64,000 nucleotides of DNA from contig NZ_JBGCUS010000001.1 in NCBI RefSeq assembly GCF_041415945.1, positions 1,550,001 to 1,614,000 of the forward strand, read 5' to 3'. How positions within the stretch are numbered: the stretch's first letter is position 1; every line of letters begins with the position of its first letter. This DNA is from Ancylobacter sp. IITR112. Its GTDB lineage: Bacteria > Pseudomonadota > Alphaproteobacteria > Rhizobiales > Xanthobacteraceae. This document shows positions 48,344 through 63,931 of the stretch, one piece after another. The position numbers and the translations under genes are program-made. Under the pieces are notes generated by a model. That model saw only the letters and a program-made list of their open reading frames with translations, had not been told where the DNA came from and ran no database searches.

Positions 48344-48433
48344 GGAAGGGTGGCCGAGTGGTTTAAGGCAGCGGTCTTGAAAACCGCCGTGGGTTCACGC
48401 CCACCGTGGGTTCGAATCCCACCCCTTCCGCCA
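48344..48433 (+). tRNA. tRNA-Ser (anticodon TGA)
   Basis: A class II tRNA with acceptor GGAAGGG / CCCTTCC, D-arm GCCGAGTGG, anticodon loop CTTGAAA within stem GCGGT / ACCGC, a long variable arm, T-arm GTGGG-TTCGAAT-CCCAC, discriminator G and encoded CCA. It borders the prophage, so its 3' end is the likely attachment site. Confidence 0.97.
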
Positions 48434-50463: not shown

Positions 50464-51615
50464 CTAGGCCCCCGTGTCGCGGCCGAGGCGCACCGCCCGC
50501 ACCGTCTGGTCGACGGCATTGCGCGAGCGCAGCCACAGCACGAGCGAAATGCCGATCACCGCGGCGAAGAACAGCCAAGGCCCGGCGGCGAGCAGATCCT
50601 CCTTGAAGGGCGAAAGCGACGACAGCGCGTCGCCGGACCTCTCCCATGCGCCGTAGAGCGCCATGGCAATGGCGCCGAGCACCGCCTGCACTTTGGCCCA
50701 GAAGCCGCCCTTGAGGGCCGCCTGCGCCGCCGGCGGAAGACGGCCGGCCTCGGCGAGGCTCGCAGCCGTCGCGCTCTCGCGCTCCGGCGCCAGCTGCCGC
50801 GTCGGCACGCCGTGGGCGAGGATGAAGGCTCGCGTCTCTGAGTTCATCTCGCCGGTCGCCGGCAGGGCGTTGTCGGTCTGAAAGGCGAACAGCGCCGCAC
50901 GGGTGCGGGTGCCGATCTTTCCGTCGACGAATCCGACCTCGGCATAGAGGGCGTCGTGCAGCTGCCGCTGCAGCGCGCGGACCTCGTATTCGGTCATCGT
51001 GGGTGCAGGCACGGGCGCGGGCGGCGCCTTGGCCGGGCGCGGCGCGGCGGGCACAGGTGCACCAGAAGAAAGCGCGGCCGTGAGGGCCGCCCGCGCATCG
51101 ACGCGCCGGCCGCTCTTCCAGTCCGGCGTCATCTTGGCCGTGAGGCGGGTGTATTCCGTGATCTTGCCGTCGTTGGACCATTTGCCATCGAAGAAGAGAT
51201 CGCGCTCCTTTTCCCGACGCGGGATGATGTCGGCCGGCTTACGCCAATCCATGAAGGCTTTGCGAGCGCCCTCGACATCGCCCGCCAACCATTTCTTCAC
51301 CCAGCTGGCGCGGCCGATCGCGCCGGTGTTGTAGTGGAACGACAGCGCGGCGGCGAACTGCGCCTGCGTCAGATCCCGCCCGCCGAAGGCTTTGCGCACT
51401 GCCGGCGCGTACTTGTTTTCCAGCAGCCAGGCGAACACGGCGAGGCAGTGCTCAAGCGACTGCGGCTTGCCGATGTAGCGGTCAACATCGTGCCCGCTGG
51501 CGCTGGTGACGCCGATGGACCACGTCAGAATGCCCTTGCTGTCCTTATAGGTCTGGCGCACCAGCCCCTCATGCGACGCAACTTCCAGCGCCACATCGAC
51601 ATCGACGCGGTTCAT
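50464..51615 (-). CDS. Phage endolysin: GH24 lysozyme with peptidoglycan-binding domain and C-terminal membrane helix
   Basis: A 383-residue muralytic enzyme. The N-terminal T4-type lysozyme domain has the triad Glu16-x8-Asp25-x5-Thr31 in HEGLVRQTYKDSKGILTWSIG, and the expected IPRREKERDLFF later. A Pro/Ala linker (near residue 190) leads to a PG-binding-1 domain (EVRALQRQLHDALYAEVGFVDGKIGTRTRAALFAFQ). Near the end a hydrophobic helix, LFFAAVIGISLVLWL, is followed by a basic tail. There is no N-terminal signal, so release should depend on the holin. The C-terminal membrane anchor is unusual for a soluble endolysin. Confidence 0.88.
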   Translation of the reverse strand: MNRVDVDVALEVASHEGLVRQTYKDSKGILTWSIGVTSASGHDVDRYIGKPQSLEHCLAVFAWLLENKYAPAVRKAFGGRDLTQAQFAAALSFHYNTGAIGRASWVKKWLAGDVEGARKAFMDWRKPADIIPRREKERDLFFDGKWSNDGKITEYTRLTAKMTPDWKSGRRVDARAALTAALSSGAPVPAAPRPAKAPPAPVPAPTMTEYEVRALQRQLHDALYAEVGFVDGKIGTRTRAALFAFQTDNALPATGEMNSETRAFILAHGVPTRQLAPERESATAASLAEAGRLPPAAQAALKGGFWAKVQAVLGAIAMALYGAWERSGDALSSLSPFKEDLLAAGPWLFFAAVIGISLVLWLRSRNAVDQTVRAVRLGRDTGA

Positions 51616-51674
51616 GGTCTCTCTCCAGGGTGCGAAATGAAAAAGGCCGCCCGGAGGGGCGGCCATGAAGGCGG

Positions 51675-54343: not shown

Positions 54344-55666
54344 CTAGAAATCCGAGACGTTCATGGTCGCGTGAAAGCCGACAGAAACGCCGGAGTTCGC
54401 CGGCCTCAGCCAGCTATAGGTCGTTCTCGACGAGACCCACGCTTTCGTCGTCGGCGCCGCGACATAGGCCCCAATGCCCGAGTTCCATTGAAGAACCTCG
54501 GTCATGTTGTGATTGCCGCAACCACACCACCAATGGTTCAGGCCATCCTGCAAAATGAAAAAGTTGAACGGCGGCCCAGATCCTGTCGGAGGCGGCGAAG
54601 GAAGTGAGTATACCCCTGTTGAAAGACCACCGGCGATTTGCGCGTACCCTTTGAGATAAGGGCTTAAGCGTCGCGACTTGAAGATGAAATCGTTCTCGCC
54701 GGCGCTGTCGAAGTCAACATTGTGCTTGGTCACCGCCAAGCCATGCTCTGGTGAGATGAAACACCTAGTGATCCCCTCGACGCTATCGACGCCAGGCGTG
54801 TACGCGGCATCCGTAGCAATGACGGCATATCTGACCTGCACAGCGGGGATGCCCTGAGATGGGATCCCCGAACTCGCCCCGGTGACCAGAATGCGGCTCG
54901 GGTTGATCCAGAAAACGCCGGTGTGCGCCCCCGTCGATGGCTCGCCCATGCGGTAGACGATCACAGGCGGGTAGTGAGGGTATGACCCCTCAAGGTCTAT
55001 GATGCTGGCACCATTGTAGAGATAGTCGATGAACGGGCCGGCAGTCACGCCGATTGTCGCGCTAGCCAGCCCGGTTTCGTAGATCTGGAAGTGGTTTCGC
55101 CGGGTCGTCAGCGGCATATCATCGAGCGAGCAGGTGTCGACGTCGAAACCGGGCTTCGAAATAAACAGACCGTGCCCGTAGGCATCATGCTTTCCGAAGA
55201 TGACGCCGTTCGGTCCACCCGCTTCTGCGGAAGAGCCGGCGTTCCCGAACAGGTAGTAAAGATAATCGACCCCCGACAGTTGGGGTGAGAAATACATGTT
55301 CGCCGCTGTCAGGGACACACTCAGCGTGAGATAGCCCCGCTGAAAAGACTGGAAAGCACCCGAAGACAGCGTGAGAGTTCCGGAGCCGCGACGAGCCCAG
55401 GCAAGCACAGGCGTCGCCAGATTCGCGGCGGGATTGACCATCCATTTGCACGCTCGCTGCCAGCCGTTGCCGTAGTTCAGCGTCAGATTTGGTAGGGAGT
55501 TCGACGCCACGACGCCGTTAGCTACTAGACGTAGTCTGCCGATGTTGGTGCTGTCGAAGGTCACATAGCGCTCCGGCAGGGACGGGTCGGCAGCGTCGAA
55601 CCCCGGAACCACCGTTCGAAGGCGGGCGACGCCATTCATGGCGCCGATAAAAATCTGATCAGGCAT
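54344..55666 (-). CDS. Putative phage receptor-binding protein, AT-richer than neighbours
   Basis: A 440-residue protein without recognisable family motifs. It is rich in Gly, Ser, Asn, Tyr and aromatic residues, as in beta-structured adhesins (NYGNGWQRACKWMV, YLYYLFGNAGSS, HWWCGCGNHNMTEVLQW). Its base composition is visibly less GC-rich than that of the flanking phage genes, with more TTT, ATA and AAA codons, which suggests recent exchange. The position right after the J-like tip protein fits a host-range determinant. Confidence 0.6.
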   Translation of the reverse strand: MPDQIFIGAMNGVARLRTVVPGFDAADPSLPERYVTFDSTNIGRLRLVANGVVASNSLPNLTLNYGNGWQRACKWMVNPAANLATPVLAWARRGSGTLTLSSGAFQSFQRGYLTLSVSLTAANMYFSPQLSGVDYLYYLFGNAGSSAEAGGPNGVIFGKHDAYGHGLFISKPGFDVDTCSLDDMPLTTRRNHFQIYETGLASATIGVTAGPFIDYLYNGASIIDLEGSYPHYPPVIVYRMGEPSTGAHTGVFWINPSRILVTGASSGIPSQGIPAVQVRYAVIATDAAYTPGVDSVEGITRCFISPEHGLAVTKHNVDFDSAGENDFIFKSRRLSPYLKGYAQIAGGLSTGVYSLPSPPPTGSGPPFNFFILQDGLNHWWCGCGNHNMTEVLQWNSGIGAYVAAPTTKAWVSSRTTYSWLRPANSGVSVGFHATMNVSDF

Positions 55667-59899: not shown

Positions 59900-62602
59900 T
59901 CAGATCTTCGTATTGCGCAGGCGAGCCTGCTGGATCGTTTGAACCACCTGCCGTGGTAGGGTCTTCTCGAACTTGTCGAACCTCTTGGTCAGCAGTTCCA
60001 CGGCGTCAGGGGTGGCGCCGCGCGCATCGATCGAAATCGGCATGGAGAGGCTCAACCGGTCACCGCCCCGCCCCATGCCCGCCAGCGTAGGAATGCGCGG
60101 CGCCCCGCCCACCAGGCCGCCGGCGGCCATCTTGCCAATCCGGCCGGAATTGATGGCTTCCAGCAGCGGGGCGAATTTCTTCGCCTGCGCCGCCCGCACC
60201 ACATACTCGCCATCCGACAGCATCATCGGGATGCTGTCGCTGGTGCCGGTGCCCGGCCCACGGATACGCCCGCCCGTGGCGGCGCGGCCGATGCCGCCGC
60301 TCACCGGCCCGCCCTGCGCCATGCCACCGAACAGCTTGGCCAGGAACCCGCCGCCGGTCGGGTCGAACAGCGCGTTCAACGCCATGTCGAGCAGCTTGTC
60401 GGCGACATTGTCGAGGGCGTTGGCGAGGGCCACCGCCCCGTCGACGCCGGCTTTCAGATCCGAGACGAACCCGCCGAGCACGTCGCGGCTTGCGTAGGAG
60501 AAATTCTCCGCCGCCTGCTGGGTCTTTCCCTGCTGTTCCGCCAGCTGCGCCGCCGACACCGAGGCCGAGGCATAGGCCGTCGCCAGTTGGTCGATCTGCT
60601 CCCGAAGCTCGGGGGTGATCGTCAGGCCGGCGCGCTGGGCGGAGGAAAGCAGGTCATACTCCGCCCGCGCCTTCTCAACCGCGAAACCATAGTCATTGAT
60701 CAGCGGGTTGAGCCCGGCCTGCGCCGCCGTCTCCGCCTCGATGGCGGCGGTACGGTCGGCAATGGCCGCCGTCATCTGCTTGTAGTCGTCCGCGTTGCGG
60801 TCGACCTTGGTCCGCCCGCCAGTGCCTTTCAGCGCCTTCCCGGTGTTACGGGCATAGGCGATATCGTCGGGCATGTCCGGCGGGCGCGGCGCGTTGCGGG
60901 CGAACTCTGCGAGGGGCGAACGGGCATAGCCCCTGCGGGTCTCGCGGTCGGCCTCGCCGGGGTTCTGCGCGGCATAGTCCATGGCGCCCACCTGCGCCGC
61001 CAGCTGGCGCTCGCCTTCGCGCACCAATGCCAACTGCGCCACTGCGTCCTTCAGAGCCTCGACCAGCTTGAGGGTCGGCGCGTCGAGGCCCTTGAAGTCG
61101 CTGATGGCATTCATCTGCTTCAGGATCGCCTCAGTATCGCTGCCGGCCACCTGCGCTTGGCGGCCGAGAGCGATGAAGGTGTCGACCACCTCCTTGGGCG
61201 CCCTCTCCGCGATCGCGTCCATGTAGCGGGAGACATCACCGAGCCACGTCAGATAATCCTCGATATCCTCGCCGCTGGTGGCGACATAGACGCTCGGATC
61301 GCTCGGCGCTTCCTGCCGCATCCGCTCCCGACGCAACAGCTCCAGCTTGGTGCGCAGATCGTCGGCTTTCTTGGCCTGCTGATCCATCGACGCGCCCAGC
61401 GCGTCGATTCCGCTGGCTGCGTCGGGCGCGATAAGCCCCAACTCGCGCAGCACCGCATTGACTTTGCTGGTCTGCTCTTCGCCCGCGCTCTGCCCATCGG
61501 CGAAAAGATAAAGGGCCGCCGTCAGGCTGGCGAGCACGAGGCCGATAGGCCCCGCCACAGAGGTGAACCCGCCGATGGCGGCGGCCACACCGCCTGCCGT
61601 AGCAGCGGTACGAAGCGCGAGGGTCAACTTTCCGACCGCCGTCACAGCGAGCCCAAGGCTGGCGATCATCCCACCGATGGATCGCCCCACGAGCGCGGCA
61701 GCTATGACGCCCGCGAGCTTAAGGGCGACATCGGCGGTGTTGTTGAAGTTATCCGCCAGCAGGTTGAGCCCCTGCACCAAGCGCTGCGAGGCGCCGAGGC
61801 TCGCGTCAGTCTCGCCTATGTACCGCGTGAAGGCGTTATTCACCTTCGTCATACCCTGGTCGATCGTCTGCGTGGCGTTCGCCGCCATCGACTGAATCGC
61901 CGGAAGACCGCGCAGGAAGGCGCGGAAGAACGCCTGCCCCGACACCTCGCCGTCATTCACCAGCTGCTTCAGCTTGTTGACCGAGCCTCCGGCCGCATCG
62001 AGGCCGTTCGCCACCGCAATCAGGATCGGCCGCGCGCCCTCATTCACGCTGTTGAACTCTTCCGCCTGCACGCGGGCCGACCCCAGAATCTGCCCCAGCT
62101 GCGTGAGAGCCCCGGAGGCCGCGCTAGCAGAGGTGCCCGCCACGCGCAGCGCCACCGCCACGCCGTCGCTGAATTGCAGGAGGTCGTCCTGGCTGGCGGC
62201 AAGGTTGTCTGAGGCCTGTGCCGCCTTGCCGTAAAGGTCGGACAGAGCGCCGATCGGCGTCGCGTTGCGCTGGGCACTCTCGAAAAGCCGGTCGAGCGTC
62301 TCGGCTTGAGCCCGCCCGGTCACGCCCGCCACGGCAAGGCTGTTCTTCGCGCTGGTCCACGCATCCGCATAGGCCAGAACCTCGCGAACGGACAGTGCCG
62401 CCCCGATCCCTGACAGCGGCGCGATCAGCCCCTTGGCCACATTGCGGCCAATGCCGTCGAGCCGACGGTTCATCTGGAAAAAGCGGTTTTCGATGGCACG
62501 GGCTTGACGGTTTGTGACACCATTCATGCGCTGCAGTTCGCGCTCGTAGGACTTCATGTCCGCGCTCATCTGCACAACGAGTTTTTCGAGGTCGGTCGCC
62601 AT
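59900..62602 (-). CDS. Phage tail tape measure protein
   Basis: A 900-residue protein. The N-terminus MATDLEKLVVQMSADMKSYERELQRMNGVTNRQARAIENRFF is a coiled coil; the middle holds Ala/Gly-rich hydrophobic segments (VALKLAGVIAAALVGRSIGGMIASLGLAVTAVG), then helical repeats and a C-terminal Gly-rich part, GGPVSGGIGRAATGGRIRGPGTGTSD. Tape measure length sets tail length; with the usual ratio of roughly 0.15 nm per residue this would give a tail of about 135 nm. It starts 27 bases from the inverted small gene at 62630. Confidence 0.88.
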   Translation of the reverse strand: MATDLEKLVVQMSADMKSYERELQRMNGVTNRQARAIENRFFQMNRRLDGIGRNVAKGLIAPLSGIGAALSVREVLAYADAWTSAKNSLAVAGVTGRAQAETLDRLFESAQRNATPIGALSDLYGKAAQASDNLAASQDDLLQFSDGVAVALRVAGTSASAASGALTQLGQILGSARVQAEEFNSVNEGARPILIAVANGLDAAGGSVNKLKQLVNDGEVSGQAFFRAFLRGLPAIQSMAANATQTIDQGMTKVNNAFTRYIGETDASLGASQRLVQGLNLLADNFNNTADVALKLAGVIAAALVGRSIGGMIASLGLAVTAVGKLTLALRTAATAGGVAAAIGGFTSVAGPIGLVLASLTAALYLFADGQSAGEEQTSKVNAVLRELGLIAPDAASGIDALGASMDQQAKKADDLRTKLELLRRERMRQEAPSDPSVYVATSGEDIEDYLTWLGDVSRYMDAIAERAPKEVVDTFIALGRQAQVAGSDTEAILKQMNAISDFKGLDAPTLKLVEALKDAVAQLALVREGERQLAAQVGAMDYAAQNPGEADRETRRGYARSPLAEFARNAPRPPDMPDDIAYARNTGKALKGTGGRTKVDRNADDYKQMTAAIADRTAAIEAETAAQAGLNPLINDYGFAVEKARAEYDLLSSAQRAGLTITPELREQIDQLATAYASASVSAAQLAEQQGKTQQAAENFSYASRDVLGGFVSDLKAGVDGAVALANALDNVADKLLDMALNALFDPTGGGFLAKLFGGMAQGGPVSGGIGRAATGGRIRGPGTGTSDSIPMMLSDGEYVVRAAQAKKFAPLLEAINSGRIGKMAAGGLVGGAPRIPTLAGMGRGGDRLSLSMPISIDARGATPDAVELLTKRFDKFEKTLPRQVVQTIQQARLRNTKI

Positions 62603-62629
62603 TATATTGGTCCCGTCGGGAGGCGCAAA

Positions 62630-62917
62630 GTGAGCAGTTTGTTATTGCTGGTTGGAATAATTCAGATCCTTGGCGGGATACTGGTTTGGGCCATCGCCAA
62701 GTCGGCAGTGCACGAAATACTTGGCTCCATATCGTTTGGCTTTGGAATACTATGCGTTCCGCTCGCCATGTTGATGAAGTACGTTGCCGACATCAGGGAT
62801 ATCGCAAGAGAGGCGGCGCGGACGAAAGGTGAGAGCCGGAGTGTGCACATGTCGGATGCGCCGGTGCGTCCGCAGATCCCGCTTGATGACCCATCCGCCT
62901 TGGCGCGGCGCCGATAG
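62630..62917 (+). CDS. Inverted small membrane protein gene within the tail operon (moron candidate)
   Basis: A 95-residue protein on the strand opposite to all surrounding tail genes. Two hydrophobic helices (about residues 4-24, LLLLVGIIQILGGILVWAIA, and 33-52, ISFGFGILCVPLAMLM) are followed by a basic cytoplasmic-type tail with Arg and Pro. It has its own GGGAGG ribosome site before a GTG start. Codons such as TTA, TTG and ATA, and the base composition, set it apart from the GC-rich phage genes. It lies precisely between the second chaperone and the tape measure. Such cargo often alters the host surface or excludes other phages; that role is inferred only from context. Confidence 0.72.
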   Translation: MSSLLLLVGIIQILGGILVWAIAKSAVHEILGSISFGFGILCVPLAMLMKYVADIRDIAREAARTKGESRSVHMSDAPVRPQIPLDDPSALARRR

Positions 62918-62931
62918 AGAGAACGCGCCAC

Positions 62932-63096
62932 TCAGTTCAGCCGCCGCGACCTGACCTTCTCCACCAGCGCCAGATGCTCTTCCGCCGTCGGCGCCGGCGG
63001 CTTGTCCTCGGCGCCGTGGGCTTTGGCATAGCCGGCCGCGCAAGCGGCGAGTTCCCACAGACTCATGTCGTCCACCTCACGCGGCGTGAATCCCAT
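62932..63096 (-). CDS. Phage tail assembly chaperone, second component
   Basis: A 54-residue frame starting at the ATG that overlaps the upstream stop (TGATG): MGFTPREVDDMSLWELAACAAGYAKAHG, then an acidic/Pro linker and EEHLALVEKVRSRRLN. The MSLWEL-x-A-x-xGY pattern is typical of the second tail chaperone in this position. The same frame stays open upstream of the ATG and reads LDEGETRLVFSALYGTGAV, also family-like, so a -1 frameshift product with the first chaperone is possible. It may be made alone by coupling, as a fusion, or both. Confidence 0.72.
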   Translation of the reverse strand: MGFTPREVDDMSLWELAACAAGYAKAHGAEDKPPAPTAEEHLALVEKVRSRRLN

Positions 63097-63497
63097 CACC
63101 GCGCCAGTGCCGTAGAGCGCCGAGAAGACGAGGCGCGTTTCGCCTTCGTCGAGGTCTTCCCGGCCGCCCGTTCCCCCACCGCGTCGCGCGCCGCGCCGGT
63201 GAGGGCGGCGCCGAGGATCACGGTCGCCGGCAGCACGTTTTCCACCAGCGGGCGCTCGTCGACAAAGCGCCGCACGAGCACGAGGGCATCGGTCGGCGTC
63301 TTGCCGCCACCGATGAGGCCGAGAAGGATCGTCTCGCGGATATCATCCACCCGCCACGAGCCATCCACCAGCCGCGCATGGATTTGCGCCGGCCCCGCCT
63401 CGCACTTGGTCTGAAGGCTACGCAGCCCACCGATGGGGAGGCGGAAAGCGTGCTCGCCGTCGCCCCAGTCGAAACTCACCTTTGCCGAGCCGTCCAT
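63096..63497 (-). CDS. Phage tail assembly chaperone, GTA-type (TAC_11-like)
   Basis: A 133-residue protein: KVSFDWGDGEHAFRLPIGGLRSLQTKCEAGPAQIHARLVDGSWRVDDIRETILLGLIGGG in outline, and PLVENVLPATVILGAAL. This matches the small protein between tube and tape measure in alphaproteobacterial GTAs and related phages, thought to chaperone the tape measure. Its ATG overlaps the stop of the tail tube gene (TGATG), and its own stop overlaps the next chaperone in the same way. Confidence 0.85.
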   Translation of the reverse strand: MDGSAKVSFDWGDGEHAFRLPIGGLRSLQTKCEAGPAQIHARLVDGSWRVDDIRETILLGLIGGGKTPTDALVLVRRFVDERPLVENVLPATVILGAALTGAARDAVGERAAGKTSTKAKRASSSRRSTALAR

Positions 63498-63931
63498 CAC
63501 GCGGCATCCGTCCACACGATGGCGCCATCGCTGGCCAGCGAGACCGAGCACGACACGAAGCCGCGCCCTTCCTTCGCAACGCCGAGATTGGTCATGATGA
63601 AAGCGCCCTGGAAGTGACCACCACCCTGCGCGCCCGGCAGATCGAGCGTGATGCGACAGTTGAAGGCCACGGCCGCCAGCATGCGATCACGCAGCGCACC
63701 CCACGAGATCGGGTCCATCGTACCTTCGCCGGTGATGCCGGCGGACAGCGTATCGACCACGCGGGCGACCCAGGCGGGGGCGTCGGGGTCAACGCAGTTC
63801 GGTTCGGTGGCCTCGACGGTGGAAGCCTCGAGCGTGAACTCGCGGGTGGTGTTGATCGAGCAGTTGAAGGCGAATTCTTCAGGGGCCTCGCCGTCACCGA
63901 ATTCGATAAGCAGTTTCTGCGTCTTGGCCAT
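63497..63931 (-). CDS. Phage major tail tube protein
   Basis: A 144-residue protein: MAKTQKLLIEFGDGEAPEEFAFNCSINTTREFTLEASTVEATEPNCVDPDAPAWVARV in outline, with GGGHFQGAFIMTNLGVAKEGRGFVSCSVSLASDG. The N-terminal strand and the EATEPNCVDPDAPAW element are typical of the tube protein of GTA-type and related siphophages. It polymerises into the tail tube. A GGAAGG-type ribosome site lies before the ATG. Confidence 0.88.
   Translation of the reverse strand: MAKTQKLLIEFGDGEAPEEFAFNCSINTTREFTLEASTVEATEPNCVDPDAPAWVARVVDTLSAGITGEGTMDPISWGALRDRMLAAVAFNCRITLDLPGAQGGGHFQGAFIMTNLGVAKEGRGFVSCSVSLASDGAIVWTDAA

Follow-up and report, generated by a model that had tools for sequence, protein, structure and literature searches.

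An inverted gene between tail chaperone and tape measure in an Ancylobacter prophage, and the exchangeable slot in which it lies

Introduction

Why does one small gene in the tail region of a prophage of Ancylobacter sp. IITR112 point against the genes around it, and what does it encode? The window analyzed here is the whole stretch of 64,000 nucleotides (contig NZ_JBGCUS010000001.1, positions 1,550,001 to 1,614,000), and positions are counted from its first letter. The gene, at 62630..62917, had been read in a preliminary description as a phage moron, that is, cargo expressed from the lysogen. Morons and exclusion genes in tail regions are already known; what appears to be new here is a mostly inverted cargo slot that is defined by its position and holds many families. 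We consider it reasonably probable that the gene is a moron and one tenant of this interchangeable, orientation-biased slot, with superinfection exclusion as its likeliest function. Superinfection-exclusion genes are hard to spot, being small and without a common sequence. Position and orientation find candidates without homology, and about half of the examined related tail modules hold an insert.

An inverted gene in the tail region of a prophage

The tape measure protein (TMP; 900 aa; PF20155, E 3.1e-50; phrog_17300) is encoded on the minus strand at 59900..62602. On the other side of the inverted gene, and also on the minus strand, are a small ORF (62932..63099; phrog_18467, E 2.5e-17), a GTA-gp10-type protein (TAC_11; 63096..63551; PF11836, E 1.1e-22), which we take as the tail chaperone, and the tail tube protein (63497..63931; PF06199, E 1.8e-10). 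Distal tail protein, tail/hub protein and tail-fibre genes were also recognised using Pfam and PHROGs, all on the minus strand, and minus-strand connector, protease, portal, terminase and D5-type primase genes follow past the window end. The earlier statement that the surrounding genes are on the minus strand holds for the lysozyme gene (50464-51666) and for the tail and head genes recognised from 55669 onwards, past the window end. The left attachment repeat, formed by the 3′ part of tRNA-Ser(TGA), lies at 48372..48433 on the plus strand. Its imperfect second copy is found beyond the window, near 90443-90504 in extended coordinates, and a match to a tyrosine integrase falls at about 89867-90319 in the same coordinates. 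The tRNA-Ser repeat and the integrase indicate that the region is a prophage. The chaperone gene and the small ORF overlap by 4 bp (63096-63099) in the window. They are fused in one frame in RHph_X2_26 (L007:2242-2814), and this fusion suggests that the small ORF may be the second part of the chaperone system. Elsewhere in the prophage, the minus-strand gene 54344-55666 has a GC content of 58.7%, well under that of its neighbours, and looks as if it had been exchanged recently.

The inverted gene sits inside a gap of 329 bp (62603..62931), which runs from the TMP start to the stop of the small ORF, as in the roughly 330-base gap noted before, and which is empty or differently filled in relatives. 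It is a plus-strand gene of 95 aa with a GTG start and a TAG stop, and the sequence GGGAGG (62618..62623, plus strand) provides its ribosome-binding site. Its GC content is 56.2%, compared with 64.8-72.1% in eight of nine tested neighbours (67% in the TMP gene) and 58.7% in the ninth, 54344-55666, and its codon score was as low in none of 5000 same-length neighbour windows. Together with the TATATT at 62603-62608, these values bear out the preliminary description of an AT-richer gene with its own ribosome site, AT-rich upstream bases and foreign codon use. The two-helix membrane character proposed earlier is likewise reflected in two hydrophobic segments of the protein, as called with a Kyte-Doolittle threshold. 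The protein also contains a conserved AKSAVHEIL loop, and its C-terminal tail is basic.

Full-length matches among 5.8 billion proteins were two in number, P0001 (98%), possibly a near-identical copy of this locus itself, and P0002 (66%). A profile search added three further, shorter homologues, and genome searches found homologues in other families of the same order. The motif AKSA[V/I]HEIL between the two hydrophobic stretches was kept in P0002-P0004 and in the homologue of genome G210, and variants were seen in P0005 (SKSAVHEIL), G228 (QGAIHEG) and G349 (AQSAIHQIL); a weak match in G126 was without the motif. As shown by the full-length identity of P0002 and the same motif in shorter homologues, the frame is conserved in relatives. 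The preliminary description had recognised no family for the protein. This stands for Pfam and NCBIfam, which gave zero matches, and for PADLOC-DB, which gave no family at E <= 0.1, but not for PHROGs, in which a family without assigned function (PHROG 27345, phrog_27345) matched residues 5-53 with E 4.7e-13. Relatives were absent in the searched viral contigs and GenBank phages, and none was found among solved structures. A structure model built from three sequences, with the L252 homologue left out, was shallow and showed one long helix (pLDDT 71.9, pTM 0.28); no evidential weight is placed on it.

The family is rare, being present in 1 of 101 relatives, namely the window's own genome, and in 1 of 385 genomes of the class; within the order it was detected in 3 of 397 genomes, or in 4 when the profile was used. 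In G228, which belongs to the same order and another family, a homologue (E 6.9e-8) is inverted between the tail chaperone and a long TMP of another type, which was missed by the N-terminal TMP profile and had PHROG 24 as its best match. The G349 homologue is inverted in a tail module of the present type at a different junction, and the weak G126 match is inverted between head-tail genes. These contexts indicate that the window family recurs as an inverted phage gene, with two cases at the chaperone/TMP junction. The surroundings of the G210 homologue gave no TMP or chaperone match.

The junction is empty in some tail modules and filled in others

Opposite-strand genes of unrelated sequence are annotated at the exact chaperone/TMP junction in the phages RHph_TM3_3_14B, vB_MseS-P1 and RHph_X2_25, and the junction carries no annotated gene in vB_LagS-V1 and RHph_X2_26. 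Of the 245 loci surveyed, seven belong to named phages; two scans with the TMP added 80 new loci each and a scan with the chaperone added 78, the best 80 per scan being kept of 568, 178 and 575 confirmed candidates. Iterated profiles located the TMP in 241, the chaperone in 194 and the small ORF in 187 of the 246 sequences including the window. After near-identical regions were merged, 162 distinct junctions were obtained, and the gap from the small ORF to the TMP was bimodal. There were 72 empty junctions (-22 to 68 bp) and 82 filled ones (166-1281 bp), and in 8 the gap was longer than 1300 bp. The moron reading had called for a comparison of presence and absence in related tail operons, and the 72 empty junctions are in line with it; they rule out that the insert is part of a conserved tail operon. 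We regard it as almost certain that a slot lies between the chaperone pair and the TMP in alphaproteobacterial siphophage-type phages and prophages.

Beside TMP genes without a detected upstream GTA-gp10-type chaperone, a membrane-like reverse ORF was present in 7 of 47 loci. Among these seven, L040 combines a strong ribosome site with a FAM0 sequence (see below), L164 scores 4, and the other five score 0. On this count, the idea that the same pattern occurs beside any TMP was rejected, and the slot seems to be bound to the tail type with a GTA-gp10-type chaperone. A larger inverted insert was seen in a distant relative, Synechococcus phage Ssp-JY40 (L009:1252-2883), in which four annotated reverse-strand genes lie between the forward genes and the TMP.

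The promoter-like scores of the reverse strand around the TMP start were then compared. Their median was 7.7 in filled junctions (n = 75) and 5.5 in empty ones (n = 72), with p 1e-7, or p 4e-4 inside the TMP alone; these scores come from weight matrices, and kinship is ignored. The best-scoring site of the window (TTTTTC, 15 bp, TATATT; 62582..62608, plus strand) spans the TMP start codon and is a candidate only, with short, poor spacing. The reverse orientation would take the cargo gene out of the late operon and permit expression in the lysogen. We predict as likely that the gene has a promoter of its own and is transcribed in the lysogen, when the late operon would be silent.

Inserts are exchanged mostly at the gene ends

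For the analysis of exchange, 11 locus pairs were picked for high TMP identity and different contents, of which eight had different inserts and three were empty/filled pairs. The flanking DNA was 80-99% identical in these pairs. Counted from the small-ORF stop, identity ended somewhere from 22 bp ahead of it to 5 bp past it. It was regained no more than 16 bp from the TMP start in nine of the 11 pairs, and at 41 bp (L095/L100) and 135 bp (L096/L102) upstream of that start in the other two. DNA-level similarity between the inserts of the compared pairs was not found. In L037/L038, for instance, different inserts stand between flanks that are more than 99% identical, and the empty L205 and the filled L206 share flanks of 93-95% identity. 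Among 43 pairs with TMP N-termini at least 90% identical, 12 had occupants of the same family, four were empty/filled, one was empty on both sides, and at most 26 had different occupants. The last number is an upper bound, because singletons were labelled by locus, and at least L179/L185 and L050/L125 share a gene or layout.

Relatives of the window's own TMP were present in 17 of 151 related genomes, at 21 loci in all, and the small ORF was located in eight of these. Four were empty (L378, L384, L390 and L395) and four filled, namely the window (L376), L377, L383 and L386. L377, from the same genus and with a TMP N-terminus 75% identical, carries another membrane gene, in the same DNA as in L090; L383 has a membrane-type reverse ORF, and L386 (gap 396) is without one. 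The closest empty site to the window is that of L378, a prophage of the same bacterial family with likewise 75% identity in the TMP N-terminus. This agrees with the moron reading of an extra gene between otherwise adjacent genes. Taken with the empty related junctions in general and the conserved frame, it lends support to the moron interpretation of the preliminary description.

Contents of the slot

A reverse ORF covered at least 60% of the gap in 74 of the 82 filled gaps, compared with 35 of 82 for a forward ORF, and an SD score of at least 4 was reached by 46 of the best reverse and 16 of the best forward ORFs. According to a Kyte-Doolittle threshold, rather than a trained predictor, the best reverse ORF was membrane or secreted-like in 66 of 82 gaps. 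The same call was made for 14 of 162 antisense TMP windows of equal size (Fisher p 4e-30) and for 11 of the 82 forward ORFs of the same gaps (p 1e-18), with kinship ignored in both values. These two controls reject the view that the reverse ORFs are antisense shadows of GC-rich DNA. By inspection, a clear reverse gene was present in 70 of the 82 filled gaps, and 64 of the 70 passed the membrane/secreted threshold; HicB was among the six below it. In the remaining 12 gaps no reverse gene was both clear and intact. Several of them had a plausible forward gene (L051, L058, L115 and L194); one, at L141:3739-4000, contains a frame-broken FAM2 occupant that appears to be a decayed cargo copy, and in the others no gene stood out. 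At L108:2712-3954 one slot holds two reverse-strand genes in tandem, both with a hydrophobic stretch at the N-terminus, indicating that there is room for more than one cargo gene.

All-against-all comparison of 88 best reverse ORFs, a set that includes doubtful ones and those of the eight large gaps, placed 51 in nine families (FAM0-FAM8) and left 37 singletons, one of which is the window gene. Four libraries were searched with 68 occupants, from 67 loci and the window but not from the near-duplicates L083 and L229, and the clear named matches were HicB, a SLATT effector, and zinc-ribbon and FxLYD-type domains. The other scanned occupants matched PHROGs without function or gave weak matches. 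FAM0 has two conserved cysteines, many occupants resemble soluble secreted domains, and some are lipoprotein-like by eye. A fold search with a FAM0 model (pLDDT 82.7; the GenBank copy L004 left out) gave no match in the PDB or in BFVD at E <= 0.001. The two-helix look-alike FAM5 was considered as a relative of the window protein and rejected, as profile comparison gave a probability of only 0.8%.

Defence and toxin-antitoxin genes are a minority of the occupants. In Agrobacterium vitis CG118, L095:929-2428 is a reverse-strand CD-NTase (PADLOC cyclase, E 2.5e-196), beside which no other ORF of at least 80 aa was listed, and L100:739-1305, on another contig of CG118, is a reverse-strand SLATT 2TM effector (3.2e-32). 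The TMP N-termini of these two loci are 99% identical, with different genes in the slot. In L102 the slot is occupied by a forward-strand gene for an Mrr-type type IV restriction enzyme, and in L023 by HicB.

Interpretation and comparison with known systems

Fixed sites with swapped cargo and defence genes are known from the phage defence hotspots of P2/P4-type elements. In contrast to these, the slot described here is inside a tail operon, is biased in orientation, and mostly holds small membrane or secreted-like proteins. The gene of Ltp, a lipoprotein of phage TP-J34, lies at a position that differs from this slot. The nearest parallel in gene order is gp15 of the temperate siphophage HK97, a small membrane protein gene between the chaperone (gp13/14) and the TMP (gp16). 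However, gp15 is on the forward strand and is followed by an annotated putative terminator, whereas the occupants of the present slot are mostly inverted and belong to many unrelated families. Moreover, gp15 has 62 aa and one hydrophobic segment by eye, compared with 95 aa and two in the window protein, and the two proteins gave no alignment at E <= 100. Prophage-encoded gp15 is described as blocking DNA injection, hybrids with the HK022 tail tube and TMP genes as escaping gp15, and Ltp exclusion as being overcome by TMP changes (PMC10883804). Ltp resembles the present case as a prophage-encoded membrane protein with a DNA-injection block and differs in its Gram-positive hosts (PMC10883804). 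SNIPE is described as a membrane-located defence at the TMP-dependent injection step; it carries a nuclease and DUF4041 (PMC13190303), unlike the window protein, which is without a Pfam match. A description of the slot was not found in searches of the openly accessible full-text literature, nor in passages of PMC9658991, PMC11893012, PMC10783043, PMC12429752 and PMC8601537.

By analogy with these systems, we lean slightly towards superinfection exclusion at DNA injection as the function of the window protein. Judging from its hydrophobicity, the protein would form a two-helix hairpin in the inner membrane, in which the AKSAVHEIL loop joins the helices, and the basic tail may be cytoplasmic. 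It would block injection by related siphophages, probably via the incoming TMP or its membrane partner. For the junction as a whole, we propose more tentatively, and with some doubt, that it could be an inverted slot reserved for proteins that block DNA injection mediated by the TMP. FAM0-FAM8 and the AKSAVHEIL family would then each be a new superinfection-exclusion family, exchanged beside the gene for its target protein, and larger defence genes (CD-NTases) would also be accepted. The slot yields a short list of unnamed membrane or secreted-like families to set against siphophages from soil and plant-associated bacteria. It also raises the question of whether injection blockers are kept beside the TMP gene because its product is their target.

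Among the other explanations, the one with most in its favour is lysogenic conversion apart from phage competition, in which envelope genes alter the host surface or stress or symbiosis traits. Occupants are mostly membrane or secreted-like proteins without known function, with few known defence families, as this would predict; nevertheless, CD-NTase, SLATT, Mrr and HicB are found in the slot, and its position beside the TMP parallels HK97 gp15, so that we regard conversion as unlikely. Still less likely is cargo of small membrane toxins or toxin-antitoxin genes that would stabilise the prophage or cause abortive infection by membrane depolarisation. The two hydrophobic segments and the basic tail of the window protein would suit a toxin, and the slot can evidently take up effector or addiction genes, SLATT and HicB being examples. 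However, the window slot contains no second protein gene, although an RNA antitoxin may be present, and many occupants resemble soluble secreted domains, such as FAM0 with its two cysteines.

An accessory role in the late phase or in virion assembly, where the reverse gene or its transcript would tune the tail genes by antisense or act in lysis, appears very improbable. The stop of the cargo gene is 14 bp from the convergent small ORF, which leaves no room for a terminator, so a transcript could run antisense into the tail genes. Yet the occupants are unrelated proteins, and the 72 empty junctions out of 162 indicate that the cargo is dispensable for the tail module. The probability that 62630..62917 is a chance open frame or decayed intergenic DNA is negligible. 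A minus-strand ORF of 89 aa (62662-62931) overlaps it, but that ORF is without a ribosome site (SD score 0), and the gene has its own ribosome site, a PHROG match and homologues at 66% and below with a shared motif; the protein-level conservation already refutes this reading.

Occupant families away from the junction

The specificity of the families for the junction was analyzed using viral contigs. A search with FAM0 only gave 27 loci. In 24 of them the gene adjoins the TMP start and/or the chaperone and is on the other strand, 20 being placed between both. The three loci off the junction were L255, L262 and L266, the last with its gene beyond the 3′ end of the TMP. FAM5 had an opposite-strand TMP or chaperone in two of five retained loci, and none was detected in the other three. 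For FAM2, a TMP or chaperone was found on the opposite strand in 28 of the best 80 of 120 loci, and none was detected in 52; at one locus, L351, the TMP was on the strand of the FAM2 gene itself. Among the 31 best FAM2 matches, 27 occupied the junction. Distant relatives of FAM2 are found at other sites and in mixed orientations on many viral contigs (L302-L360), and FAM2-type proteins show a CxxC near the membrane stretch, with the sequence TPNHLLHLLLS..GLWLPVW.
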